From: Thermococcus sp. AM4
GTDB taxonomy: Archaea; Methanobacteriota_B; Thermococci; Thermococcales; Thermococcaceae
Assembly: GCF_000151205.2 (NCBI RefSeq)
Contig: NC_016051.1
Coordinates: 62,001 to 126,000, forward strand
DNA length: 64,000 nt
Reading direction: 5' to 3'
Under the pieces are notes generated by a model. It worked only from the letters and a program-made list of their open reading frames with translations, was not told the origin of the DNA and ran no database searches. The translations under genes were made by a program, and so were the position numbers. Shown here piece after piece: positions 302 through 59,816 of the stretch (position 1 is its first letter; each line of letters opens with the position of its first letter).

Positions 302-1204
302 ATGGGAAGAAAAAGGACTTACCTCAAAGCGGGACTCATCATGCTGGCTCTTGCATTTCTGATAATCATTTATCCCGTAGCTTCATACTACTTTGGCATC
401 TACCTCGGATCAAATCACACAATTCATAAACCGGGGTCCTCTTTCACCTATGCCGGGGGATTGATGACAAAGAATTATGTCTATCACTTCGAGGTTCTCA
501 AGAACGGGAGCTATAACTTCACGGCTATTCTCTATGGAGGGAAGCCCCTCCCCGGCTACGGATTTGGCCACCATGGGAGACCTCCCAGGGACTGGAGGTG
601 GCCTTTCTTCGGGAAAATGAACTCCTCCGTTGTCAAGATCTGTGAGGTAAACCGCATACTCCCGCCCAACGATCCGCTTGTTCAGTTCCTGTTCCCCAAG
701 GATCGGGTTTACATATTCAACAAGACAAGGGACATAGTTAGGTTGCCCGGTCCCGATGAGGGCGTTTTAGTTGTGAACTGGTACTTCCTTCCCCACTACC
801 TCGGATTTCCCCGGCTTTATGCTCCACAGGGATTGGAGCGCTTTGACCGCAACCTGGCGATTAAGTTTGGAACTTCCCTTTACTTCCCGGTCGTTAAGTA
901 CGTGAAGGGAAGTGATGGCTATTATGCACTTGAGGTATACCCTAGGTTCTACGGAACAGTTGAGTTGCTTCAGCTGGAGCGCTTTTTCAACTCCTCCTGT
1001 CTTGGAAACGAAATTGAAATGTACGGAACGGAGCCCGGCGGTTTTCCGCCGTTAATGCTCGTCAAAACTAACGTACAGCCAGTCTCACAGGATTGGTTTA
1101 GGGCCATTAAATGGAGTGCAACACAGTATACAGCCCCGGTGGATTACGTCTTTGCTCTCGTTGGGCTCGTCTTACTGATACTTGCTGGGAGGGTGAAGAA
1201 TTAA
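302..1204 (+). CDS. membrane-anchored surface protein, first of a tandem pair
   Basis: This 300-residue protein belongs to no family I recognise. It has a hydrophobic N-terminal segment (about residues 8-30), a long presumably extracellular domain with several N-glycosylation sequons (NFT, NSS, NKT), and a C-terminal membrane helix (about 280-297) ending in RVKN. It probably sits on the outer face of the membrane. ATG 302 is chosen because GGAGGTGAG lies just upstream and because it aligns with the start of the paralogue that follows. An ABC ATPase and a permease come next in the same direction, so it is probably the surface partner of that transporter. Function unknown. Confidence 0.8.
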   Translation: MGRKRTYLKAGLIMLALAFLIIIYPVASYYFGIYLGSNHTIHKPGSSFTYAGGLMTKNYVYHFEVLKNGSYNFTAILYGGKPLPGYGFGHHGRPPRDWRWPFFGKMNSSVVKICEVNRILPPNDPLVQFLFPKDRVYIFNKTRDIVRLPGPDEGVLVVNWYFLPHYLGFPRLYAPQGLERFDRNLAIKFGTSLYFPVVKYVKGSDGYYALEVYPRFYGTVELLQLERFFNSSCLGNEIEMYGTEPGGFPPLMLVKTNVQPVSQDWFRAIKWSATQYTAPVDYVFALVGLVLLILAGRVKN

Positions 1205-1227
1205 TGAGATTAACCGGGGGTGCCGCA

Positions 1228-2124
1228 ATGAGAAAGAAAAAACTGTATCTCAAAGCCGGCCTGTTTTTCTTGGCGTTCTCCTTTCTCATCGTGATGTATC
1301 CCATAGCGTCATACTACTTCAGTATCTACCTCGGGTCAGATCATGCCGTTCACAAACCCGGATCATCCTTCACCTACGCCGGCAATTTAATAACACGGAA
1401 CTACGTCTATCACTTTGAAGTGCTCGAAAATGGGAGTTACAACTTTACGGCGATAATGTACAGGGGACTTCCCCTTCCCGGGTATGGCTACAGTCAGAGA
1501 AAAAGTCCCCCAAAGGACTGGAGATGGCCGTTCTTCGGCCCGAAGAATCAAAGTGTCATCAAGGTGTGTGAAATAAACCGCATACTCCCACCCAATGATT
1601 CACTTGTGCAGCTCCTCTTTCCAGCCGATGATAGTGTGTACATCTTCAACAAGACTCGCAGGATAGTTAAGCTTCGAGGCTTCAGCGAGGGGGGCTACAT
1701 AAACTGGTACTTCCTTCCCCACTACCTTGGTTTTCCCCAGCTTTATGCCCCAGAGGGTTTGGAGCGCTTCAACAGGACGCTGGCTCTCAAATTTAATACC
1801 ACCGAGTACTTCCCTGTAATCAGGTACCTCAAAGGAAGTGATGGCTACTATTCCATAGGTGTTGTTCCATCAACTCCGGAGAACCTCAAGCTTCTCCAGC
1901 TCCAGAGGTTCTTCAACCAGAGCTGTATTGGGGTTAACCTCTCAATGTACCTCCGCGGAGGCTTTCCGGAGATGATGCTCGTTAAGACCAACGTACAGCC
2001 AGTCTCGCAGGACTGGCTCAGGGCAATTAAGTGGAGCGCTACCCACTACACGGCCCCGGTGGATTATGTCTTCGCACTCGCGGGGATCGTGCTCCTAATC
2101 CTCGCCGGGAGGGTGAAGGGTTGA
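1228..2124 (+). CDS. membrane-anchored surface protein, second of a tandem pair
   Basis: A 298-residue paralogue of the preceding gene with the same plan: N-terminal hydrophobic segment, glycosylatable outer domain, C-terminal membrane helix. The two proteins align almost end to end. The last 50 residues, with the shared KTNVQPVSQDW block, are nearly identical in protein although the DNA differs at many third positions, which indicates an old duplication under selection. ATG 1228 aligns with the paralogue's start and follows GGGGGTG. Its TGA overlaps the TTG start of the ATPase gene, so translation is probably coupled. Function unknown. Confidence 0.8.
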   Translation: MRKKKLYLKAGLFFLAFSFLIVMYPIASYYFSIYLGSDHAVHKPGSSFTYAGNLITRNYVYHFEVLENGSYNFTAIMYRGLPLPGYGYSQRKSPPKDWRWPFFGPKNQSVIKVCEINRILPPNDSLVQLLFPADDSVYIFNKTRRIVKLRGFSEGGYINWYFLPHYLGFPQLYAPEGLERFNRTLALKFNTTEYFPVIRYLKGSDGYYSIGVVPSTPENLKLLQLQRFFNQSCIGVNLSMYLRGGFPEMMLVKTNVQPVSQDWLRAIKWSATHYTAPVDYVFALAGIVLLILAGRVKG

Positions 2125-2942
2125 GGCTCAGCGTTCAGAACCTCGGGGTAAACTACGGAAGGGTCTGGGGAGTTAGGGGGTTGAACTTTGAAGCCAAAGC
2201 CGACAGGATAGCGATAGTCGGCCACAACGGAAGCGGGAAAACTACCCTCCTTTCGGTTCTTTCTGGCCTCAGGAAGCCGACGGAAGGGAAAGCGTTCATA
2301 AACGAATGGGAACCGTACCGCAGGGACGACAGGTGGACGGTGATAAGGTACTCCTTTGAGAAGCCTCAGTTCTCAATTCCTGTCAAGGTCTCGGACCTCG
2401 TTGAGGTTTTGGAGGCCAATGAAAGCTGCGACCGTGTCGATGATCTCGTGGATATGCTGGGCATACGCGAATTCCTTGACCACCGTCTCGACGGACTTTC
2501 CAGCGGTCAGGCCCAGCTCTGCAACCTCCTAACTGCCCTCGCATGCGATTCGGAGGTGTTGATACTTGACGAACCCACAAGTCACCTCGACGCCTACCGC
2601 GCCGGACTTATCGACGAGATGCTGTCAAAGAGAAAGGGCCTCATCATAGCCACCCACGATCCAGAGGAAGGTGAGGCGGTCGCGGACTACTTCGTGATCC
2701 TCAAGGAGGGCCGGATCGTCTGGGAAGGGAGCAGGAGAAAGCTGTTTGCCGAGGGCATCTACGAGGTCACCCTGAGTGGAATCGACGAGCCCATGCCGGG
2801 CAACGTGGAGGTTCTCCATCGCTTTGGGGCAATTGTCGTCGTCAGGACGGGAGAAGACGAGCTGACCGAACTTATGAGGAGTGGAAAAATAGCGGGGTTT
2901 AAGAGGGCGGGGTTGCGCTATGCCTACGTGGAAAGCCGTTAA
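2121..2942 (+). CDS. ABC transporter ATP-binding protein
   Basis: A 273-residue ABC ATPase. Walker A GHNGSGKT is at residues 34-41, the signature LSSGQ at about 126-130, and Walker B VLILDEPTSHLD at about 146-157. The TTG start at 2121 is preferred: it forms a TTGA overlap with the previous stop and follows GGAGGGTGA. The sequence upstream in this frame lies inside the previous gene. The ATPase would energise the permease encoded next. The domain after Walker B (about 100 residues) looks like a short regulatory tail. The substrate is unknown; the linked surface proteins suggest export or handling of envelope material. Confidence 0.9.
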   Translation: MRLSVQNLGVNYGRVWGVRGLNFEAKADRIAIVGHNGSGKTTLLSVLSGLRKPTEGKAFINEWEPYRRDDRWTVIRYSFEKPQFSIPVKVSDLVEVLEANESCDRVDDLVDMLGIREFLDHRLDGLSSGQAQLCNLLTALACDSEVLILDEPTSHLDAYRAGLIDEMLSKRKGLIIATHDPEEGEAVADYFVILKEGRIVWEGSRRKLFAEGIYEVTLSGIDEPMPGNVEVLHRFGAIVVVRTGEDELTELMRSGKIAGFKRAGLRYAYVESR

Positions 2943-3597
2943 ATGGTACTTCCGGGGCCTGTTTCCCCCGGTTACCACGGCGGTCCTCTTCCTGTTCATG
3001 TTAGCGGCCGCTTACTCTTCCCTCGGCTCAATCAAAAATCAGGGCCCGGGTCAGTTCGTCACTCTCATGGAGTACATATTCCTCCCGGTTTACGGCGTCC
3101 TCATCGCGTCCCACATAATGAGGGACTCAAAGACGACGGTTTTTGAACTGTCGATATTCAACGGACCGAGAACTGTTTACTGGGTTAGGGTTTTCATCGT
3201 TGCTCTTGGCCTTGCACCGGGCATCGTTGGAATTGCAGCGATGACATGGCTCAGGGGATACCACAGCTTCGCTGTTTCACTTCTCCTCAAGCTTCCGGCT
3301 TACACGGCCTTTGCAGCGATCATAGCCGCTGTCCTCGACTCCCTCGCCGGCTCGATAACCTTCTTCATCCTGACCTCGGCCATCCCCATGTCCTTCAGGG
3401 TTCTTCTCCAGAGCAACGGGAGCACTGGAGGGATAATGGCCGCGCTCTCGTACGTCTTCGCCCCCATGACCACCGTGGAATTCAGGAAAGCAATTTTAAT
3501 GCCCAGAACAACCGGTTACGTCATCTTGATCAGCCTTTCGGCACTTCTGCTCCTTTTAGGATACGCGATGTTCGAGAGAAGGGAGTACTCGCCCTGA
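2920..3597 (+). CDS. ABC transporter permease-like membrane protein
   Basis: 225 residues with about six hydrophobic segments, as in ABC-2-type permeases. It overlaps the end of the ATPase gene by 23 bases, so the two are probably translated together and form one transporter. No binding-protein gene or signature of a known uptake system is present. This is the last gene of the 302-3597 cassette; beyond it lies a 218-base gap. Confidence 0.75.
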   Translation: MPTWKAVKWYFRGLFPPVTTAVLFLFMLAAAYSSLGSIKNQGPGQFVTLMEYIFLPVYGVLIASHIMRDSKTTVFELSIFNGPRTVYWVRVFIVALGLAPGIVGIAAMTWLRGYHSFAVSLLLKLPAYTAFAAIIAAVLDSLAGSITFFILTSAIPMSFRVLLQSNGSTGGIMAALSYVFAPMTTVEFRKAILMPRTTGYVILISLSALLLLLGYAMFERREYSP

Positions 3598-50759: not shown

Positions 50760-51122
50760 ATGAGGATAGTTAAGGTTCCGCGCGACGATCGGGTTGGTGT
50801 CATTCCCTACGGCTCCGTTCCGGAGGTCGAGCTGATCATCGACGTTCTTCCGAGGAAGGGTGAGCTGCTGATCCGAACAACGAACCCAAACACCGTGAAG
50901 GTCGAGATAACCAACGAGGTCGAGCTGTATTACTTCGGGGGCTTCTGGCAGAGGCTCGATCCCGGGATAGTTTTCATCGAGCGCAGAATAGTCCTCCTTC
51001 CCGGCGAGACCTACGAGCAGAGGCTTCCCGTCGATTTAAGCCCCGGCCGCTACAAGGTCGTCAAGTTCGCCTACGTGAACGGGGCCAAGGTCAGGGTCGA
51101 GAAGGAGTTCACCGTGAGGTGA
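50760..51122 (+). CDS. uncharacterised beta-rich protein
   Basis: 120 residues, no membrane helix. Alternating strands (VELIIDVLPRKGELLIRTTN, RIVLLPGETYEQRLPVDLSPGRYKVVKF) suggest an immunoglobulin-like beta-sandwich. A likely cytoplasmic protein since no signal is seen. A TATA-like AAAAGCTTATG at about 50725 and a ribosome site near 50740 suggest its own promoter. The last 14 bases overlap the ABC ATPase on the other strand. Confidence 0.65.
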   Translation: MRIVKVPRDDRVGVIPYGSVPEVELIIDVLPRKGELLIRTTNPNTVKVEITNEVELYYFGGFWQRLDPGIVFIERRIVLLPGETYEQRLPVDLSPGRYKVVKFAYVNGAKVRVEKEFTVR

Positions 51123-51780
51123 AGGAGAGGGAGTAGAGGTTCCTGAGCGTTTCCTCCATCTCATTAACCCCTCCCTCGGCCACCAGTTTCCCGCCGGCTA
51201 TCACGTAGACCCTGTCCACTAGGGGCAGGAGGGGCTCCCAGATGTGGCTTATCAGCAGGAAGTTGGTTTTCTTCCTCAGGGTTCTGATTATCTCGACGAC
51301 CCTGCCCATCGCCTCGAAGTCGAGGTTAGCGAGTGGTTCGTCGATCATAACGAGCTCTGGAGAGCCGATCAGAGCCTGAGCGAGGCTCAGCTTCTTCCTC
51401 ATTCCCGAGGAGTACTCCCTGATTCTTCTGTCGAGGAAGTCGATCCCGAGCAGTTCTGCCACCCCGTCGGGATCGCCGCCCCGATACTCCGCGAAGAGCT
51501 CCAGCCACTCCCTGCCGGTAACGAGCGGTGGAAAGCCTGCTGGATCGAAGGAAATGCCGACCTTTCTCTTGAATTCCGCGTCCTTCCAGGGATCCTTCCC
51601 GAGAACCAGTATTCTGCCGGAGGTCGGTCGGTAGATCCCGGCCGCTATCTTGAAGAAAGTGCTCTTTCCGCCGCCGTTCGGGCCGACGATGAGGTTAACT
51701 CCCTCCGGGATCTCAACGGTGATTCCATCGAGGGCCCGTATGCTCCCGAAGTACTTCTTCAGCTCAACCGCCTCGATCAA
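51109..51780 (-). CDS. ABC transporter ATP-binding protein, cassette A
   Basis: 223 residues. Walker A GPNGGGKS (33-40), signature YSSGMRKKLSLAQA and Walker B LVMIDEPLANLD are all intact. The TTG at 51780 overlaps the stop of the preceding gene in TTGA and follows GGAGGTGG, so translation is coupled. It is very close to the ATPase at 56818: two DNA blocks are nearly identical (67/68 and 90/93 bases). It is the last gene of cassette A. Confidence 0.92.
   Translation of the reverse strand: MIEAVELKKYFGSIRALDGITVEIPEGVNLIVGPNGGGKSTFFKIAAGIYRPTSGRILVLGKDPWKDAEFKRKVGISFDPAGFPPLVTGREWLELFAEYRGGDPDGVAELLGIDFLDRRIREYSSGMRKKLSLAQALIGSPELVMIDEPLANLDFEAMGRVVEIIRTLRKKTNFLLISHIWEPLLPLVDRVYVIAGGKLVAEGGVNEMEETLRNLYSLSFTSR
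51195..51262. repeat. direct repeat copy 1 between ABC ATPase genes
   Basis: This 68-base tract matches 56895-56962 at 67 positions, in the same orientation. A second pair, 51659-51751 and 57362-57454, matches 90 of 93 bases. They lie in the ATPase genes of cassettes A and B. Confidence 0.8.
51659..51751. repeat. second direct repeat tract, copy 1
   Basis: A 93-base tract covering the Walker A coding region, matching 57362-57454 at 90 positions. Confidence 0.8.
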
Positions 51781-52241
51781 CGGGACCACCTCCTTATTGC
51801 GACCGCGAGCAGGACCGAGGCAGTTATTCCGATAAGGGAGTAGCGCTCTTGGGTTCTTTCAGGCGCGTGGAAGTCGGTCACCACGAGACTGCACGTGGCA
51901 GAGCCGTTGCCCTCAATGCCGAGGGTGTAGGTGCCCTCATAGGGGACCGGGAAGCTGGCCTTCAGACTGCCGTGAACCGGGGCCTCGAAAACGACCCTTC
52001 CAGTGAAGGCGTTTTTGATGTAGATCCTGCCTTCCCCGTTTCCGCAGGTGAGGTTCACCCTCGACCACGCGGGGATGTGGAGGGAGAGCGTGCTCTTCAT
52101 GGTGTAGTTCCCGCCCTCGGCTCTGCTGATCCGAACAGGAGGGACCGTTATCACATCGCCCGACTTGAGGGGGTAAACGAGGGCAACCGCGAGGGCCGAG
52201 AGGATGAGCGTGAGGAGCAACCCTGCCAGAAACCGTTTCAA
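51777..52241 (-). CDS. small secreted protein of cassette A
   Basis: 154 residues. A hydrophobic start (about 3-22) exports the protein; a beta-rich outer domain of about 95 residues with two cysteines (CGNGEGR and ATCSLVV) follows, then a C-terminal hydrophobic helix (about 130-148) and a basic end. YPLKSGDVI is shared with the paralogue at 57480. Start TTG 52241 overlaps the permease stop in TTGA. The long in-frame upstream reading frame lies over the permease and is rejected. Function unknown. Confidence 0.75.
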   Translation of the reverse strand: MKRFLAGLLLTLILSALAVALVYPLKSGDVITVPPVRISRAEGGNYTMKSTLSLHIPAWSRVNLTCGNGEGRIYIKNAFTGRVVFEAPVHGSLKASFPVPYEGTYTLGIEGNGSATCSLVVTDFHAPERTQERYSLIGITASVLLAVAIRRWSR

Positions 52242-52996
52242 GTTACATCCCTCCTTTCGACCAGTGCCAGTGAGAGCGTTACAAAAACAGCGGGGATGAC
52301 GATCCCCTGGAGGAGGTAACCGGGGCTGAAGACCTCGTGGAGGTGCATGGGAATGGCGCTGACGAAACTGAAGGGTGGAACGTTGAGACCGAGGAAGCTG
52401 GGGAGGATGAGGAGTACGAACGAGGCCATTATTGCCTGGGAGGAGTTGGGGAGCACGAGCGAAACGAGGACCGAAAGGGAAGCCGAGTAGAGGACGAAGT
52501 AGAGGGCAAAGATCAGAAGGTACCTGAAGCTCCCCCAGCCAAAGAGCGCGGGGAAGAGATGAGGTACGCTGGCGAAGGCTGTCGCGAGGAACAGGAACAT
52601 GGGAAGGTATAGGAGAAGGAGCGAGTGCACGAGGAGAGCTAAGAACTTGGTTCCAAAGATCTTTTTCTTCGAGAGGGGAAGGGTGAAGACCGCCCCCGCG
52701 TAGCCGCCCTCTCTGTCGGCCCGGAAGATCATGGCGCTCATGACGATCACGAAGATCGAGAGGAGGACCCAGAAGTGGTCCAGCCCGAAGGTGGAGAGTA
52801 TGACGCTCCCGGTGGGGCTCTTGGGGAGTGATATGGCCTCGCTTCTCCCACCGAGATACCCGGTGGTTGAGTAGGAAAACGCCCCGCCGTGACTCAGCAG
52901 ATCTGAGATTAAAACCATGAGGAGGACCGGAACCCCGGCGACGAGCATTGAAACCCTCAGGTGCTCGGAGAGCTCCCACTTGAACAGTCCCTTCAA
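52238..52996 (-). CDS. ABC-2-type permease, cassette A
   Basis: 252 residues with six hydrophobic segments and the soluble RADREGGYAGAVFTLPLSKKKIF loop that is conserved in ABC-2 permeases. It pairs with the ATPase two genes downstream. The paralogue at 57935 has the same loop (YERDMGYAQSLYTLPLSKGRIF). The start overlaps nothing; the gene ends 4 bases into the secreted-protein gene. Confidence 0.85.
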   Translation of the reverse strand: MKGLFKWELSEHLRVSMLVAGVPVLLMVLISDLLSHGGAFSYSTTGYLGGRSEAISLPKSPTGSVILSTFGLDHFWVLLSIFVIVMSAMIFRADREGGYAGAVFTLPLSKKKIFGTKFLALLVHSLLLLYLPMFLFLATAFASVPHLFPALFGWGSFRYLLIFALYFVLYSASLSVLVSLVLPNSSQAIMASFVLLILPSFLGLNVPPFSFVSAIPMHLHEVFSPGYLLQGIVIPAVFVTLSLALVERRDVT

Positions 52997-53000
52997 GCTC

Positions 53001-53999
53001 TCACCTCCTCGTATAGGCCACGAGCGGAAGGATCATGGAGGCGAGGAAGATGTAAACCAGGGGCGTCCTCGGAGGTTTGCCGGGGATATAGAGGCTGCCG
53101 ATGTTGATGTTTGCGTCGTAGAGGCTCAGGCCCTGCGGTCTAATCGTCTTCAAAGTCCCCCTAGCGAGCTCGTTCCTGTGGAGATGGGCGTAGCGCTCCG
53201 CCTCGGCGTCGTTCGGGGATATTGAGACTATCCCGATGGCCCTGAGATCCGGGGAGGAGCCCATTATGACCTCCGTGATGTCGAGGGCCGGGTTGTAGTA
53301 GTAGATGTCCGCGAAGCTTGTCTTGTAAAAGGGCAGGGTGATGTGGGACCAGTTGGTTATGAGGTCGCCGTTGGGGCGCTGGAACGTCTTCCAGTAGGTT
53401 ATAACGTCGTAGTCGGTGTTGTCGTTTCTAACGACAGTCACGGCGCTTCCGTTGAGGATAGCGAAAACGTCCCCGGGTTTGAGCTCCCGCAGGCCCCAGA
53501 GGACGGTGTGGCCGAGGTATGTTCCCGAATGGCTGTAAACCTTCCCGTCGGGCGTCACGGTGTAGGTTCCCCTCAGAGTTAGTGCATGGTCCACTATCAC
53601 CGTCGTCATGTTTGTCGAGACGTTTTTCCCGTCTTTTTCAAGTGGAACCTGCCCGATTAGGGTCTCCCCGGATCCCCAGAAGTTGCAGTGCGCTTTTCCC
53701 GTTAGAAACGTAATGTGAAGACCCGGACTCCTGGTCGTTGAGTTTCTGGAGGGTCTGAGAAGAACGGTAATCCCTACTTCAACTCCCTTCTTGGAGACGT
53801 TCAAAACCGAGAAGTTCACGGTGATGCCCGAGATCCCAACTATCAGGAATTCCGTCCCGTTGCAGGAGTAGAGGAGCAAAGTCCCGCCGGCTGGATCCTC
53901 GGCGTGATAAACCAGGTAAGTTCCCGGTCTCAGCCATGAGGGATAGGCGAGAACCCCGGGAAGGAAGAGGAGGGGGAGGAGCAGGAGAAGGCGTTTCAT
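53001..53999 (-). CDS. surface protein of cassette A
   Basis: 332 residues. A classical signal peptide (about 1-18, ending VLAYPSW) is followed by an outer domain with many NxS/T sequons and a C-terminal membrane helix with a basic end (YTRR). Contains the paralogue-shared block GTYLGHTVLWGLRELKPGD. No family recognised. It heads cassette A. A TATA box lies at about 54029-54042. Confidence 0.78.
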   Translation of the reverse strand: MKRLLLLLPLLFLPGVLAYPSWLRPGTYLVYHAEDPAGGTLLLYSCNGTEFLIVGISGITVNFSVLNVSKKGVEVGITVLLRPSRNSTTRSPGLHITFLTGKAHCNFWGSGETLIGQVPLEKDGKNVSTNMTTVIVDHALTLRGTYTVTPDGKVYSHSGTYLGHTVLWGLRELKPGDVFAILNGSAVTVVRNDNTDYDVITYWKTFQRPNGDLITNWSHITLPFYKTSFADIYYYNPALDITEVIMGSSPDLRAIGIVSISPNDAEAERYAHLHRNELARGTLKTIRPQGLSLYDANINIGSLYIPGKPPRTPLVYIFLASMILPLVAYTRR

Positions 54000-54028
54000 A
54001 GGCTTCCCCGGACAACTTTGGAGAAAGT

Positions 54029-54042
54029 CCTTAAGTACTTTT
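54029..54042 (-). promoter_or_regulatory. cassette A promoter
   Basis: AAAAGTACTTAAGG on the minus strand, about 30-40 bases before the surface-protein start. The AGTACT core is also present before cassette B (59730-59744). Confidence 0.45.
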
Positions 54043-54057
54043 CCCCGGTTGAAGTAT

Positions 54058-55980
54058 TTAACCCTTCGCGGGGGTTCCCCAAAATCTTCTCAGGTAAAGC
54101 CGCATCCTCGCCAGATCGACGGGTTTCATCGTTTCTACCATCCAGTCGGGGAAGTCCTTTCTAACGTTCCTCCACAGAACCCTGTAGTCGAGGATTATTA
54201 TCGAGCCCTTCTCCTCCGCCGAGCGGTGAACCCTTCCGGCGGCCTGGACGAGCTTCCTGTGGGCCGGCAAGTAGTAGCCGTAGTATCGGCCCTTTCCCGG
54301 GAACTTCCGCTCGAAGTACCTTATCTGGGCCTGGACGCGCGGAGTTGGCCTCGCGTAGGGAATCCCGACCAGTATGACCCCGTTCATCTCGTCGCCTGAG
54401 TAATCCTGTCCCTCGCTGTTCCTCCCGCCCATGACGCCGAGCAAAACCGCTCCTCCGCTCCTCGCGTGGGCCTTGAACTGGGCAACGAGGAGGTCGTTCT
54501 CCCTTGAGCTCGCCCCCTGCTTCTCGATAAAGACCGCCTTTCCCGTCTCCTCAAGTCTGACCTGAAGGTTCGCCGAGAGCAGGCCCTGGAGAACCTCATA
54601 GGAGGCGGTGAAGACGCCGACGTTCTTGGGGATCAGCCGAACGGCCTCGACGATATAATCGCCCATCTTTCTGTAGAGCTCCATCGAGCGCTCCTCGCCG
54701 CGCGTCGAGACGTCCTTGGCCACCAGAACCTGCGCGTTTTCGCGCTTCACCATTCTTGGAAACTTCTTCAGCCTGGCTTTTTCGATGCCCATGACGTCGC
54801 GGAATGCTTCCAGAGGTGTCAGCGTGCCGGACATGAATATCGCGCTCTGAACGTCCCGGATGAAGCTCAATGCCCTTGAGGGATCCAGAGCAACGAGCTC
54901 AAGGCTTAAGCCCTTCTCCCTGCTGAGAAGGAAGAGGTAATCGTCCCTGCCGATGAGGGAGAGCCACAGCAGGAGGAACTCCCCGACCCTTCCTATGTAG
55001 CTCCTCGGCGGCTTGTTCTTGTTTATCCTGTCTTCCCTTATCGCATCCCCAACGGCCACCATCTCGTTCAGGGTTTTGACGAGCCACCTCGTATCGAGGC
55101 CGAGGACGTTCATGAGGTGGCCGAATATTAGCTCGGGCGCTATCGGTGTTTCCTCAACATCCCTGTTGCCGAGCTTCTCCGAGTAGAGGATCTCAAGGCC
55201 CTTCCCGAATATGCTGAGGAAGTTGGCTATCTCGTGCTCCCTGTACTCGTCGGCCTCTTTGATCGCCCTGTTCACCGTGTGGATGCTCATCCTGTCGCTT
55301 AAGGCCGAGATCGCCTGGTCGGGCAGGTTGTGGGCCTCGTCAAAGATCACTATCAGGTCGGAGTAATCGAGGTCGAGGTATGTCAGGAAGTTCTCCCTTA
55401 TTGTGGGGTTGAGGGCGTAGAGGTAGCTCGCGACGATTACATCGGCTTTGTAGGCTACCAGCCTGGTAACGTCGTAGGGGCATATCTCAAGCGTTTCCGA
55501 GTAGTTGAGCACCTCGACCGGACTGGCCGGGGTTTCGAGGAAGAAGTTAACCAGTTCATCGAGCTCGGCCTTTTTCTTCTTCTCGTTCTCGTAGAAGGGG
55601 CACTTCCCGCTCTTACGCAGGTTCTTGCAGACCACCATGGCGGTGTAGGCGTCGGTGGTGTACTCCCTCAGGTAGCTGTGAAGGCACAGCTCCTTCCTGC
55701 TCCTCATCTCGACGCCCGAAACCTTCGCCTTCCCGTTTATCGCCTTGAGCTCCTCTATAACCCTGTCCATCTGCCTGTGCGTCCTTGCCAGGTAGAGGAC
55801 CTTTAAACCGAGCTCTTTGGCGACCGGGAGGACGCCCGCCAGAACGCTGACGGTCTTTCCAAAGCCCGTCGGCGCCTCGATGATGGCGTTCTCGCCCCTC
55901 TCAACTGCGTCCCTAACCAGTTCGATGAACTCCAGCTGATGCGGCCGGGGCCTGTAGGGCAGGTACTCGAGTTCGGTCAT
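54058..55980 (-). CDS. xpd: XPD/Rad3-like Fe-S DNA helicase
   Basis: 640 residues. Walker A is APTGFGKT (36-43), the DEAH box lies at 214-217 (VIFDEAHN) and motif VI is QAAGRVHRS. Four cysteines of the Fe-S domain are Cys99, Cys118, Cys127 and Cys167. XPD helicases unwind DNA 5'-3' in repair. Length is normal for archaeal XPD. It has its own promoter (minus-strand AGGTTAAAAGCC near 56010-56022) and separates the two ABC cassettes. Confidence 0.95.
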   Translation of the reverse strand: MTELEYLPYRPRPHQLEFIELVRDAVERGENAIIEAPTGFGKTVSVLAGVLPVAKELGLKVLYLARTHRQMDRVIEELKAINGKAKVSGVEMRSRKELCLHSYLREYTTDAYTAMVVCKNLRKSGKCPFYENEKKKKAELDELVNFFLETPASPVEVLNYSETLEICPYDVTRLVAYKADVIVASYLYALNPTIRENFLTYLDLDYSDLIVIFDEAHNLPDQAISALSDRMSIHTVNRAIKEADEYREHEIANFLSIFGKGLEILYSEKLGNRDVEETPIAPELIFGHLMNVLGLDTRWLVKTLNEMVAVGDAIREDRINKNKPPRSYIGRVGEFLLLWLSLIGRDDYLFLLSREKGLSLELVALDPSRALSFIRDVQSAIFMSGTLTPLEAFRDVMGIEKARLKKFPRMVKRENAQVLVAKDVSTRGEERSMELYRKMGDYIVEAVRLIPKNVGVFTASYEVLQGLLSANLQVRLEETGKAVFIEKQGASSRENDLLVAQFKAHARSGGAVLLGVMGGRNSEGQDYSGDEMNGVILVGIPYARPTPRVQAQIRYFERKFPGKGRYYGYYLPAHRKLVQAAGRVHRSAEEKGSIIILDYRVLWRNVRKDFPDWMVETMKPVDLARMRLYLRRFWGTPAKG

Positions 55981-56024
55981 GGTTCTCCCGGGGAGTACGT
56001 CCGGCGGCTTTTAACCTTTCCCGC

Positions 56025-56453
56025 TCAGCCCTTCCATATGTAGAACCTTATCTCGCAGGGGAAATAGCTCTCGGGGACGGGAGTCCAGTAGTTGGCCCAG
56101 TAGTTGACGGGTTCGAGCGGCCCCTCGTGGGTGATGACCTGATAACCCGCCACGTCGGGGGGCTTGTTCATGCAGATCAGAGCGAGCTGGGCCTTTCTGA
56201 TCGGTGCCTTGAGCGCCCAGATCTTGTACTCGACCTTGTAGGTTCCGTCGCCGTTGTCAACGAGGTACGCGTCTATCCTCACGTCGCCGTAGTTCGCGGT
56301 GGCGTTCTTGAAGATCAGCGGATCGAGGACGAGCTGGTTGTAGTAGGGAACGTCCTTCGCGGTGCCCCTGAGGTAGTGAACGCCGATTCCTATGATTATC
56401 AGAACCGCAACCGCAACCAGGAGGTACTCGAGGGCCGACTGTCCCCTCCTCAA
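56025..56453 (-). CDS. class III signal-peptide pilin-like protein
   Basis: 142 residues. RRGQSALEYLLVAVAVLIIIGIG is a class III signal (Q-S-A-L-E), cut after the Gly. Cys residues near 95 and 134 occur in a small globular outer domain. The TTG at 56453 is chosen because it follows GGTGAG and gives RRGQ at the start; earlier codons overlap that site. It is not linked to the large pilin operon at 34822. Confidence 0.8.
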   Translation of the reverse strand: MRRGQSALEYLLVAVAVLIIIGIGVHYLRGTAKDVPYYNQLVLDPLIFKNATANYGDVRIDAYLVDNGDGTYKVEYKIWALKAPIRKAQLALICMNKPPDVAGYQVITHEGPLEPVNYWANYWTPVPESYFPCEIRFYIWKG

Positions 56454-56545
56454 GCCGCTCACCAATCGGAGTACGGTGAGGTGCCCTTAAATTTACCGGG
56501 GCCAAGTTTTTTAAGTGCCTGCCCCACTCAATACGGCGATCAAAA

Positions 56546-56833
56546 ATGGACGAGGAAAAGGCACTGGAGCTCGTTGAGTACGGGGTTGAGGCACTTCTCC
56601 TCGGGGCGTTCACATACCTCTTCGCCTACCAGAACTACCTCCTCTACCGCTGGCACAGGGGCCTTCCCCTTCCGGCTAAATGGCCCTTCATCCTCCTAGG
56701 ACTGGCGGTGGGCCTCGGGTTCTTCCTGTATAAATCGTGGCGCATCCTGGAGGAGAACGGAGAAAAGCCAGGAAAAGTGGAGCCAGAACCTGAAACCACG
56801 GACAGCGGGCAATCCCCTCAGGGGCCGGCGTAG
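56546..56833 (+). CDS. small two-helix membrane protein
   Basis: 95 residues. Two membrane helices (about 8-30 and 46-66) with a short loop and a Pro/Glu-rich tail. A TATA box (AAGTTTTTTAAGTG, about 56504-56517) supports it. It overlaps the end of the cassette B ATPase by 16 bases on the other strand. Function unknown. Confidence 0.65.
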   Translation: MDEEKALELVEYGVEALLLGAFTYLFAYQNYLLYRWHRGLPLPAKWPFILLGLAVGLGFFLYKSWRILEENGEKPGKVEPEPETTDSGQSPQGPA

Positions 56834-57483
56834 TAGAGGTTCCTCAGCACTTCTTCCATCTCATCGGCCTCGCCGTGGGTTACGAGCCTTCCATCGGCTA
56901 TCACGTAGACCCTGTCCACCAGGGGCAGGAGGGGCTCCCAGATGTGGCTTATCAGCAGGAAGCTCCGCTCGTCCCTCAGTTCTTTGAGGATCCTGACGAC
57001 GTCCCTTATCCCGTTGAAGTCAAGGTTTGCGAGTGGTTCATCGATCATAACGAGCTCGGGATCGCCGACCAGAGCTTGGGCGAGGCTCAGCCTCTTGAGC
57101 ATTCCGGATGAGTAGGAGAGAATCCTCCTGTCGAGGAAGTCGATGCCGAGAAGCTTGGCAACCTCGTCGACGTTCTCCTTTCCCCTTGCCCGGGCGAAAA
57201 GGGAAAGCCACTCCCTGCCCGTCACGAGGGGAGGGAACTTGGGAGGATCAAAGGAAACCCCGACGCGTTCTTTAACCGAGCCGTCTCTCCAGGGGTCTTT
57301 TCCGAGAACCCTCACGGTTCCGGCGGTGGGGCGGTAGACACCGGCAACTATCTTCAGGAAGGTGCTCTTTCCGCCGCCGTTCGGGCCGACGATGAGGTTA
57401 ACTCCCTCAGGAATCTCAACGGTGATTCCGTCGAGGGCCCGTATGCTCCCGAAGGTCTTGGTGAGGTTTCTAGCCTCTATCAC
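56818..57483 (-). CDS. ABC transporter ATP-binding protein, cassette B
   Basis: 221 residues. Walker A GPNGGGKS (33-40), signature YSSGMLKRLSLAQA and Walker B LVMIDEPLANLD are intact. The GTG at 57483 overlaps the preceding stop in GTGA and follows GGGGGTGGAGG. The paralogue is at 51109; shared DNA tracts suggest gene conversion. A longer upstream frame lies over the secreted-protein gene and is not real. Confidence 0.92.
   Translation of the reverse strand: MIEARNLTKTFGSIRALDGITVEIPEGVNLIVGPNGGGKSTFLKIVAGVYRPTAGTVRVLGKDPWRDGSVKERVGVSFDPPKFPPLVTGREWLSLFARARGKENVDEVAKLLGIDFLDRRILSYSSGMLKRLSLAQALVGDPELVMIDEPLANLDFNGIRDVVRILKELRDERSFLLISHIWEPLLPLVDRVYVIADGRLVTHGEADEMEEVLRNLYYAGP
56895..56962. 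repeat. direct repeat copy 2 between ABC ATPase genes
   Basis: Partner of 51195-51262. The copies are 5.7 kb apart, so recombination between them could delete the helicase and one cassette, or transfer sequence between the two ATPases. Confidence 0.8.
57362..57454. repeat. second direct repeat tract, copy 2
   Basis: Partner of 51659-51751. Three mismatches, all silent or conservative in the coding frame by inspection. Confidence 0.75.
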
Positions 57484-57938
57484 CACCTCCACCCCCTCAG
57501 GAGAAGGGCGGAGAGTAGCAGGCTCGATGCCACGCCAAGGGAGTAGTAAAACCTCTGGGTTCCGAGCGGCGCGTGGACGTTCCGCATAACGAGGGCGCAG
57601 GTCGGCGTTCCCGAGCCGTTGAAGGTGATTTCGTAGATGCCCGCGTGGGGGAAGGCGAACTCTGCTGTTAGCTGGCCGTCTATCGGCACTTCTAGGAGGG
57701 TTTTGTTCAACGCCTGGTCGGCGATTCTCATCGTTCCCGTCCCGCCGGAGCAGGTCATGTTTGCCGCCATCCACCCGGGGACGTAGAGTTCCAGGGCCTC
57801 ATAGTGGCCGGACCTCAGGCTTCCTATCGGCGTCGGGAACGTGTTTATCTCCACCCCGGACTTCAGGGGATAGGCCAGCATCGGGGCAATGGACGAGAGC
57901 AGGAGGGCGAGGACGGCGGTGAGGATGAACCTCCTCAT
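57480..57938 (-). CDS. small secreted protein of cassette B
   Basis: 152 residues with the same plan as the 154-residue protein of cassette A: hydrophobic start, beta-rich domain with two Cys (MTCSGGTG and PTCALV), and a C-terminal helix. YPLKSGVEI corresponds to YPLKSGDVI. The pattern of a 150-residue beta-sandwich between two hydrophobic ends has no named family to my knowledge. ATG 57938 overlaps the permease stop. Confidence 0.75.
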   Translation of the reverse strand: MRRFILTAVLALLLSSIAPMLAYPLKSGVEINTFPTPIGSLRSGHYEALELYVPGWMAANMTCSGGTGTMRIADQALNKTLLEVPIDGQLTAEFAFPHAGIYEITFNGSGTPTCALVMRNVHAPLGTQRFYYSLGVASSLLLSALLLRGWRW

Positions 57939-58693
57939 AGAACATCCCTCCTATCCATGAGGACGAACGCCGCCAGGAGAAGGAGCACCGGAAGGATCAT
58001 GCCCTCAAAAAAGTTGGCCTTCAGGGGCTCGTAGGGCCTGAAGTAGGTAACCGGCAGTTTCCTTATTGCGTCGGAGAAGCTGAAGGGCGGCGCGTTTATC
58101 CCGATGAACTTCGGGACGGCCAAAAGGAAGAAGGAAGCCATGAAATCGAGGAAGGCGTTCCGGAAGAGGAGCGAGACGAGTATCGAGACGGAAGCCGCGT
58201 ACAGAACGAAGTAGAGCGTCAGCACCATGGCCGAGATAAAGATCCCCCCGCTCATCGCCTCCCTGAGCGCCGGCCAGATGTCGGCGTGGGTTCCGGCGAT
58301 GGCAATGAGTATTGGGACATATGCAGTCAGGAGGCTCAGCAGGAGGACGACGGCGGTCTTGACGAGGAAGATCCGCCCCTTTGAGAGGGGAAGCGTGTAG
58401 AGGGACTGCGCGTAGCCCATATCCCTCTCGTACCTGAAGGTCAGGATTGCAAAGATCGGGATGAGAAGAGCCAGCATCGTCCAGGGGGAGGGATCGCCCA
58501 GGGGCGAGAGGATCGCGTGGGTTAGCAGGTTAGGGCCGAGGAACCTGCCCGTCCCGCTTGGCACGGCTGAGACCCTCGTTTCAAGAACTTTAGCCGTGAG
58601 GACGAGGGTCAGTCCAGAAACCGAGAGGGCAAAAACGATCAGGCGGACGTGGTCGCCGAGCTCCCACGCGAGCACGTCACGCAGCCTTCCCAT
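57935..58693 (-). CDS. ABC-2-type permease, cassette B
   Basis: 252 residues with six hydrophobic segments and the loop YERDMGYAQSLYTLPLSKGRIF. Paralogue of 52238-52996, at the same place in the cassette. The start at ATG 58693 is preferred after GGGAGGTG. It pairs with the ATPase of cassette B. Confidence 0.85.
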   Translation of the reverse strand: MGRLRDVLAWELGDHVRLIVFALSVSGLTLVLTAKVLETRVSAVPSGTGRFLGPNLLTHAILSPLGDPSPWTMLALLIPIFAILTFRYERDMGYAQSLYTLPLSKGRIFLVKTAVVLLLSLLTAYVPILIAIAGTHADIWPALREAMSGGIFISAMVLTLYFVLYAASVSILVSLLFRNAFLDFMASFFLLAVPKFIGINAPPFSFSDAIRKLPVTYFRPYEPLKANFFEGMILPVLLLLAAFVLMDRRDVL

Positions 58694-59711
58694 TGAGAAC
58701 ACCTCCCTTGAGCAAAGCTACACCGAGAACTATCAGTGAGACGAGGAAGGCAACTCTAAGGCCGCTCCTTGGCGGCCTGGCTGGAAAGACGGCCCTGTTC
58801 TCGCGGACGTTCGTGTCGTAGAGGGAAAGCCCCTGCATCCTCATGAGGGGTATCTTCGTGAGCTCGTTCTTGTGCTCCAGGTTGAACCTCCTTGCGGCCC
58901 CGTCCGATGGATCGACAAAGATAACCCCAACCGCTATCAGGTCCGGAACAGGCCCCAGAAAGGTCAGCGTGAGGTCGAGCTGGGGGTTGTAGAGGGCGAA
59001 GAACACCGCCTTCCATGCCGTCCAGAGTTCGTCGTGGCTGCAAAACTCACTAAAGAACATGCCGTTCGGTCTTTCAAAGCTCCCGTAGTAGGTCAGGACG
59101 GTCTTGTTGATTATCCGGTTTGAGGCGACCCTCACCGGCGTGCCGTTGAAGACGAAGAGCGTGTCGTTAACCTTCAGATCCCTGAGTCCCCAGAGGATGG
59201 TGTGGCCGATGTACCTTCCGTCAAGCGTGTAGACGCTCCCGTTGCCGAGCTTGATGAAGTATTCACCCTCTATCACGAGGGGCTTTTTCGTTCTCGCCAC
59301 GGCGCTCAGCAGGGAGACGTTTCCCTCGTGGATCCAACCCTTCCTCAGGCCGGAGTAGTTGAGCCACGAGAAGAGCGGCTCCGGGTCCTCCCCCCTGGTT
59401 GCAGTGTACACCATTACGGAATCGTTGACTCCCTTCCCGGGCAGGAAAACGAGCTTGACCCCAACCCGCGCCGTGTTTCCGGTAACCTCTAAAACAGTGA
59501 AGTTCACCAAGAGCCCGTCCGCCCCTATGGAGTAGTAGGTTCCGTTTCTGATGTAGTCCGCTATGGGCCCCTGGCTTTCATCATCGAAGGCGTAGTAGGA
59601 GAGATAAACCCCCTCCCTGAGCCAGAAGGGTTTTGAGGCGGTAACGGGGGACGATAGCAGAACGGCGAGCAGAGCTACGAATAGAAATCGCTTCGTCGGG
59701 CTCACCCCCAT
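58677..59711 (-). CDS. surface protein of cassette B
   Basis: 344 residues. Signal peptide (about 8-25), glycosylatable outer domain and C-terminal helix. Shares with 53001 the plan and blocks such as RYIGHTILWGLRDLKVNDT and LSLYDTN. Head gene of cassette B. The start may be ATG 59711 in a nearly leaderless transcript or GTG 59705. Function unknown; probably the surface sensor or substrate of the transporter. Confidence 0.75.
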   Translation of the reverse strand: MGVSPTKRFLFVALLAVLLSSPVTASKPFWLREGVYLSYYAFDDESQGPIADYIRNGTYYSIGADGLLVNFTVLEVTGNTARVGVKLVFLPGKGVNDSVMVYTATRGEDPEPLFSWLNYSGLRKGWIHEGNVSLLSAVARTKKPLVIEGEYFIKLGNGSVYTLDGRYIGHTILWGLRDLKVNDTLFVFNGTPVRVASNRIINKTVLTYYGSFERPNGMFFSEFCSHDELWTAWKAVFFALYNPQLDLTLTFLGPVPDLIAVGVIFVDPSDGAARRFNLEHKNELTKIPLMRMQGLSLYDTNVRENRAVFPARPPRSGLRVAFLVSLIVLGVALLKGGVLNGKAA

Positions 59712-59729
59712 ATCACGTTTGCTTTGCCA

Positions 59730-59744
59730 GTACTTAAAATTTTC
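59730..59744 (-). promoter_or_regulatory. cassette B promoter
   Basis: GAAAATTTTAAGTAC on the minus strand lies about 25 bases before ATG 59711, giving a very short leader. Confidence 0.45.
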
Positions 59745-59816
59745 GACAGGAGATAGTTATGAAGAAGAAAAGCCTGCATAGTTGGGGACAACAACGGCAA
59801 TGAGGAAAAAGAGGGA

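Follow-up and report, generated by a model that had tools for sequence, protein, structure and literature searches.

A duplicated ABC-2 transporter cassette in Thermococcus sp. AM4 and its exchangeable secreted partner gene suggest a candidate antagonism system of Thermococcales

The 64,000-nucleotide stretch of Thermococcus sp. AM4 analyzed here (NC_016051.1, positions 62,001 to 126,000; hereafter the window) belongs to a closed Thermococcaceae genome of 2.09 Mb and carries two cassettes, A and B, in which four genes occur in the same order on the minus strand: a surface protein (S), an ATP-binding cassette type 2 (ABC-2) permease (P), a small β-domain membrane protein (B) and an ATPase (A). 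This duplicated S-P-B-A arrangement had been proposed by a sequence-only reading of the window and is borne out. The four-gene view describes the window correctly, but the S arrays of related loci are mostly headed by a fifth gene, U, which encodes a small secreted protein, is missing at both window cassettes and could not be seen from the window. Between strains, U is swapped jointly with the S next to it, and P-B-A is conserved. In the explanation that we favor, with a probability of roughly 0.55, U is an effector released by the cell, its cognate S is an immunity protein or receptor anchored in the membrane, and P-B-A is an ABC efflux pump in the style of LanI/LanFEG. Since both window cassettes and the genome as a whole lack U, the window cassettes would be U-less immunity copies, or receiver-only copies if U is a signal. 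The role in peptide resistance suggested by the sequence-only reading lies near this explanation, but U and its exchange with S were beyond what the window reveals.

Profiles built from both window copies were searched against 94 Thermococcaceae genomes. S, P and B were matched across the family, with P present in 61 of the 94 genomes at up to five copies per genome, and the order S(1-4)-P-B-A is kept over about 100 loci. One clade has an additional PEGA-domain surface protein of ~540 residues, with a C-terminal transmembrane (TM) segment, either between S and P or after the ATPase. U lies directly in front of an S at 61 of the 102 permeases that have at least one upstream S, and U-S pairs may be repeated within a locus (three in L082, two in L072). 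The U protein has a signal peptide and a mature part of about 100 residues, and 14.5% of its residues are aromatic. Searching the genomes with U profiles produced 92 matches, 88 of them within 1.5 kb of an S or P gene; two further matches are at multi-S loci farther out (G039 and, by a probable assignment, G042), and the remaining two, located elsewhere, are weak 49-column alignments. The window genome, searched in full with the same profiles, returned zero U matches. The loci orthologous to cassette B (L065/L066, in G026 and G040) carry U between the M42 peptidase gene and S. In the U alignment of the PEGA clade (A9), the N-terminal half is conserved, two cysteines are invariant and the C-terminal part is variable, a layout that is, by analogy, that of polymorphic effectors. 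Scanned singly, 33 U members gave no Pfam or NCBIfam match; no PDB match was obtained, and no convincing homology to S or B was found.

The co-exchange of U and S is apparent from several comparisons. At the HD-domain hydrolase locus of 15 species, U distances track those of the adjacent S (Mantel rho = 0.45, p = 0.0004) and, in the same species, not those of P (rho = -0.19), B (-0.06) or A (0.08). Correlation with P at this locus is 0.10 (p = 0.22) for S1 and 0.13 (p = 0.09) for the S adjoining P, and P tracks B (rho = 0.78). At a second locus, the correlation of U is 0.87 with S versus 0.68 with P. When the 138 locus pairs whose permeases share 75% identity or more were classified, U and S proved both the same in 42, both different in 71 and discordant in 18 and 7, yielding an odds ratio for concordance of 23.7 over pairs that are not independent of one another. 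Synonymous divergence (dS) of U and S is often >1 or saturated where the dS of P is 0.07-0.5. In loci with flanks 91-95% identical in DNA sequence, the break runs from inside U through S1, and exchange tracts, in different locus pairs, recurrently stop close to or right at the point where an S gene or P begins, not within P-B-A. Positive selection on U or S was considered and rejected: the ratio of nonsynonymous to synonymous divergence (dN/dS) of U or S is about 0.2, indicating purifying selection, and the variation of U and S hence derives from allele replacement rather than from rapid point change.

The distribution of S relative to U, and the manner in which the loci decay, also bear on function. 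No U was detected in front of 81 of the 147 S genes, and 52 of these 81 unpaired genes are 60-99% identical to an S elsewhere that is paired with a U. Loci with S-P-B-A intact and U absent or reduced to a remnant number 32, some of which may hide a U too diverged for detection, versus 6 with U intact and S-P-B-A broken, several of which are drafts or contig ends and one of which is in a closed genome. The accumulation of unpaired S genes together with the preferential loss of U is, by analogy, a toxin-immunity pattern.

P and A belong to the ABC-2 type exporters, as recognized from both an ABC ATPase and an ABC-2 permease. The permease of cassette A stays under the Pfam cut-off, yet it is homologous to that of cassette B. 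The ATPases conserve Walker A (GPNGGGKST), signature (SSGM) and Walker B (LVMIDEP) motifs, and the Q-loop Gln position is acidic in 136 of 136 ATPases (135 Asp, 1 Glu). In NCBIfam, the ATPase matches TIGR01188 (5e-34, drug resistance) and TIGR03740 (2e-29, lantibiotic protection); for the latter, the window ATPases score 102.9 and 93.7 bits against a cut-off of 309.75 and so fall short of assignment to LanF. Separately, L069, L071 and L074 (and L068) were observed to hold two full S-P-B sets and a single ATPase gene, so one ATPase could energize two diverged permeases.

S consists of a signal peptide, an ectodomain and a single C-terminal TM helix. The AlphaFold2 model of S(B), computed from a 56-row alignment, has a predicted local distance difference test score (pLDDT) of 88.6 and a predicted template modeling score (pTM) of 0.82, and presents the ectodomain as a large antiparallel beta-barrel-like body. 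Its closest structural matches are LmcA (VIA Z 8.7, root-mean-square deviation (rmsd) 4.3, 180 aligned residues) and YmcC-like lipoproteins (Z about 8, 8.2), although a Z near 8 may reflect common arrangement alone and the best Foldseek E for S is 0.014, with none below 0.001. The likeness to LmcA and YmcC is therefore a lead and not proof. LmcA has been described (PMC8972800) as a beta-barrel of elongated shape around cavities that may bind lipid. The B protein had been taken for a 150-residue secreted beta protein, and this must be corrected: in the AlphaFold2 model of B(B) (pLDDT 87.2), TM helices at residues 2-26 and 125-151 flank a beta-sandwich, and the protein is not freely secreted. 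The sandwich is GOLD/jelly-roll-like (p24 GOLD, Z 9.8, rmsd 2.2, 82 aligned residues), with many unrelated jelly-rolls tying. The earlier statement that the partner proteins have no recognizable family stands for S and B, as profile searches matched no accessory family. Scanning 56 S members one by one gave no Pfam or NCBIfam family; B members scanned singly had no Pfam match, the window B proteins had no match in Pfam or NCBIfam, and a PADLOC scan of the cassette returned generic ATPase matches only, leaving S and B unmatched. Membership of S, B or U in a curated family was accordingly rejected after separate scans of 33-56 members (for B, against Pfam alone), lone matches at E>0.003 being due to chance.

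Under the favored explanation, U would be exported by Sec and then act on the envelope of related archaea in an archaeocin-like manner, as a candidate effector, and the S ectodomain, held on its single C-terminal anchor, would recognize cognate U at the cell surface. P, B and A would together make up an ABC-2 complex in which ATP powers the displacement or expulsion of U bound to S, or of the molecule that U attacks, in a mode likened to LanFEG with LanI and in a presumed direction of transport. A single conserved pump could thus serve several exchangeable S specificities, with extra S genes broadening the repertoire, and loss of U would leave an immune-only cassette, as in the window. Several observations weigh against this explanation. 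Unlike many pore-forming peptides, U is non-cationic, with a median net charge of -2, and lacks a second TM segment; it has no known activity and matched no bacteriocin or toxin family. At a third locus, the PEGA locus, all components are correlated, and U follows P (0.91) as well as S (0.75). Direct binding between U and S is inferred from co-inheritance, which linkage also favors. At L266, the locus in the closed genome G024 (presumably T. kodakarensis KOD1), U is intact and both S and P are broken into two frames apiece, which is the opposite of what immunity predicts, unless another S protects. Lastly, the window S genes share no more than 35-43% identity with any U-paired S and may accordingly have drifted in role.

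The co-exchange of U and S would suit any matched pair, and it is conceivable, if unlikely, that U and S are a secreted ligand and its surface receptor, engaged in self-recognition, signaling or a surface complex, with P-B-A not detoxifying but transmitting or assembling, as NosFY does with surface NosD. A surface protein combined with an ABC-2 permease and a related ATPase follows NosD-like logic; when the ATPase profile was searched against the PDB, NosF (E=2.6e-39) was among the nearest single-domain proteins. The VARTIG modules (PMC8416519), moreover, are variable surface modules of Thermococcales of unknown purpose. However, the modeled S is not a NosD-type beta-helix, none of the 56 S members has a NosD-type Pfam match and no nitrous-oxide reductase genes occur among the neighbors inspected. 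Loss of U with S-P-B-A retained (the 32 versus 6 loci above) and the accumulation of unpaired S genes are, in addition, expected of immunity and less so of a ligand-receptor pair.

The PDB proteins closest to the ATPase are ABCA lipid exporters, which are phospholipid transporters, and the structures nearest to S are beta-barrel proteins of lipid-binding type. These favor a multidrug or envelope-lipid exporter in which S binds hydrophobic small molecules or lipids and U is a lid or cofactor of S, and drug resistance was proposed by Makarova et al. 2014 for a diverged operon of ABC ATPase, permease and binding protein, arCOG00194 (PMC4158269). We regard this role as improbable, given the limits of the structural scores described above and because substrate diversity alone leaves unexplained that U is replaced with S but not with P, B or A. 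Purifying selection on U is also what would be seen if these were ordinary ABC-2 export genes with fast-evolving neighbors, U and S being linked by hitch-hiking at recombination hot spots. That account is very hard to reconcile with the confinement of U to S/P loci over 94 genomes, with exchange tracts that repeatedly end at or near the start of S or P and not inside P-B-A, and with the three U-S pairs of L082.

The favored effector-immunity explanation may also be set against known systems. LanI/LanFEG (NisI/NisFEG, SpaI/SpaFEG) likewise combines a surface protein with an ABC-2 permease and an ATPase, and the ATPases described here score on TIGR03740, below its cut-off; the acidic Q-loop residue is a partial likeness. 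The present loci differ in having one permease per unit and not two (LanE, LanG), the additional B, an S that is TM-anchored and unrelated in sequence, a Sec-type candidate effector with no modification enzymes nearby, and Asp in the place of the LanF Glu. This Glu, replacing the Q-loop Gln, is reportedly the 'E loop' of LanF (Okuda 2010). At lactococcin 972 and streptococcin loci, too, membrane protein and ABC genes are immediately preceded by the gene of a small, unmodified protein secreted through Sec, but U has no sequence match to that family (its model was unmatched by 33 of 33 U proteins in Pfam and NCBIfam at E<=1) and S, P and B are separate genes here. To our knowledge, no arrays of one to four S genes occur at lactococcin 972 loci. 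LanFEG pumps protect by freeing peptides from the cell (PMC7038271, which also cites Okuda 2010), and streptococcin loci comprise the bacteriocin, LclB/ScbB and the ABC ATPase ScbC, with strains in which B and C are kept but the bacteriocin gene is lacking (PMC11796350), a likeness to the U-less loci here. Polymorphic toxins and contact-dependent inhibition (CDI) systems share a conserved effector N-terminus, an exchanged C-terminus with an adjacent immunity gene, and orphan immunity copies; the exchange of U and S fits the CDI-type pattern in rank correlations, dS, odds ratio and tract ends, with U a candidate toxin. They differ in that U is about 100 residues long, neither a large delivery protein nor a nuclease domain is seen, and the unit includes an ABC pump. 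VARTIG genes are also Thermococcales-only variable surface genes swapped by recombination, but they encode large immunoglobulin-domain proteins (arCOG07710), and the text of that paper mentions no ABC transporter or permease (PMC8416519). The VARTIG head protein, with its immunoglobulin (Ig) domains, is not in the cassettes, and S, P and B have no Ig matches in Pfam. Makarova et al. describe operons of an ABC ATPase, a 6-TM permease and a diverged putative binding protein in archaeal 'dark matter islands' as proposed resistance exporters; the text of the paper includes no secreted partner, B protein or pairing, and some arCOG00194 operons may be the loci described here (PMC4158269).

The sequence-only reading called the system lineage-specific, and at the sensitivity of our profiles this holds: in contrast to the Thermococcaceae, S was found in 0 of 393 and 1 of 29 genomes of two other archaeal phyla (422 genomes, the single case being a weak, unconvincing 60-residue match), where no positive control exists. 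ATPase relatives outside Thermococcales have no S, P or B nearby, two more distant class members hold generic permease relatives only, without S or B, and a plasmid search gave no match to the system. The same system outside Thermococcales was thus rejected, as only generic ABC relatives or nothing convincing turned up, and the system appears confined to this order. Neither U nor its pairing with S is described in the literature searched, which did not extend to a 2019 mBio survey of archaeal antimicrobials, and no secreted antimicrobial protein for Thermococcales was found in it. It is possible, at somewhat worse than even odds, that these loci constitute a new archaeal antagonism system, exclusive to Thermococcales, that joins a polymorphic secreted effector to a cognate, membrane-anchored beta-barrel immunity protein and a dedicated ABC-2 efflux module, with CDI-like replacement of the C-terminal part of the effector along with the immunity gene, and with orphan immunity arrays, the window genome having orphan immunity only. 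Archaeal weapons and immunity are barely characterized, and the system is compact and widespread, with a defined candidate effector and partner; because T. kodakarensis and T. onnurineus, both genetically tractable, offer natural allele series, direct antagonism among hyperthermophiles becomes a testable question. The analysis adds the families S and B (no Pfam, NCBIfam or PADLOC match) and U (no Pfam, NCBIfam or PDB match), together with a group of ABC ATPases whose Q-loop Gln position is invariably acidic.

The two window copies are old. Pairwise protein alignment gives identities between cassettes A and B of 37.8% for S, 34-38.0% for P, 38.0% for B and 72.2-73% for the ATPase, and shuffle z-scores of 26-56 (29.6 for the S pair) place the homology of corresponding proteins far above chance. 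In the tree, A and B are sister clades and the separation of A-type from B-type is supported at 0.98-1.0. Cassette A has orthologs in G019 and G020 and cassette B in G026 and G040, G019 presumably being T. gammatolerans EJ3 and G026 being what we take to be T. onnurineus NA1. The duplication therefore predates those species, and a recent tandem duplication was rejected on the basis of the separate orthologs and the well-supported clades. The ATPases are 73% identical versus the 56 +/- 5% expected from permease divergence (permeases 34%), and their genes share two 60-bp DNA blocks at 95% identity, which suggests partial gene conversion between them.

Coordinates of the cassette genes and associated features (window positions; PEGA-domain genes are given by locus)
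Feature	Coordinates	Strand	Basis or remark
Cassette A, whole	53999-51109	minus	S-P-B-A
S(A), membrane-anchored surface protein, 332 aa, signal peptide, C-terminal TM helix	53001..53999	-	ORF; no Pfam/NCBIfam match
P(A), ABC-2 permease, 252 aa	52238..52996	-	PF12679 E=2.3e-5, PF12730 E=1.5e-4, both under Pfam cut-off
B(A), TM/beta-sandwich/TM protein, 153 aa, TTG start	51777..52238	-	homology to B(B), family model
A(A), ABC ATPase, 226 aa, Asp at Q-loop Gln position	51109..51789	-	PF00005 E=3e-20
Intergenic stretch upstream of S(A), 58 bp, too short for U	54000..54057	-	sequence
Cassette B, whole	59711-56818	minus	S-P-B-A
S(B), membrane-anchored surface protein, 344 aa	58677..59711	-	ORF; no Pfam/NCBIfam match; AlphaFold2 model
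P(B), ABC-2 permease, 255 aa	57935..58702	-	PF12730 E=7.3e-8, above curated cut-off
B(B), TM/beta-sandwich/TM protein, 152 aa	57480..57938	-	AlphaFold2 model
A(B), ABC ATPase, 224 aa, Asp at Q-loop Gln position	56818..57492	-	PF00005 E=7e-22
Stretch upstream of S(B), up to M42 peptidase, 105 bp, too short for U	59712..59816	-	no U or recognizable U remnant; site of U in relatives
PEGA-domain surface protein gene, L082	11158-12771		
PEGA-domain surface protein gene, L098	8135-9748		
PEGA-domain surface protein gene, L131	8619-10250		

Adjacent genes within both cassettes abut or overlap by 1-26 nt, suggesting translational coupling, and the TATA-like elements ATTTTAAGTA (59740-59731, in front of S(B)) and AAGTACTTAA (54040-54031, in front of S(A)) are putative promoters. 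An XPD-like helicase gene and small genes separate the cassettes. The cassette neighbors are unrelated housekeeping genes (ManC, PMM, LeuRS, HD hydrolase, XPD-like helicase, M42 peptidase), and gene context therefore gives no hint of a pathway. A short ORF between the cassettes (56025-56465) has a weak class III signal peptide match (pilin-like), and a 120-residue protein with a weak Big_14 (Ig-like) match is encoded at 50760-51122 by a gene that runs convergently to cassette A and keeps its position in L063 and L064.

The genes at 302-3597 had been read as a third cassette of the same logic, which did not hold up. Their order is S-S-A-P, without B; the two surface proteins share 71% identity and are unrelated to S (z <= 2.0), the permease is unrelated to P (z <= 2.5), and a generic ATPase alone, at 25-30% identity, is shared with cassettes A and B. 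This is a separate system, the twice-anchored surface proteins of which belong to no known family, occur in 13 of the 94 Thermococcaceae genomes and are duplicated in at least one genome besides this one.

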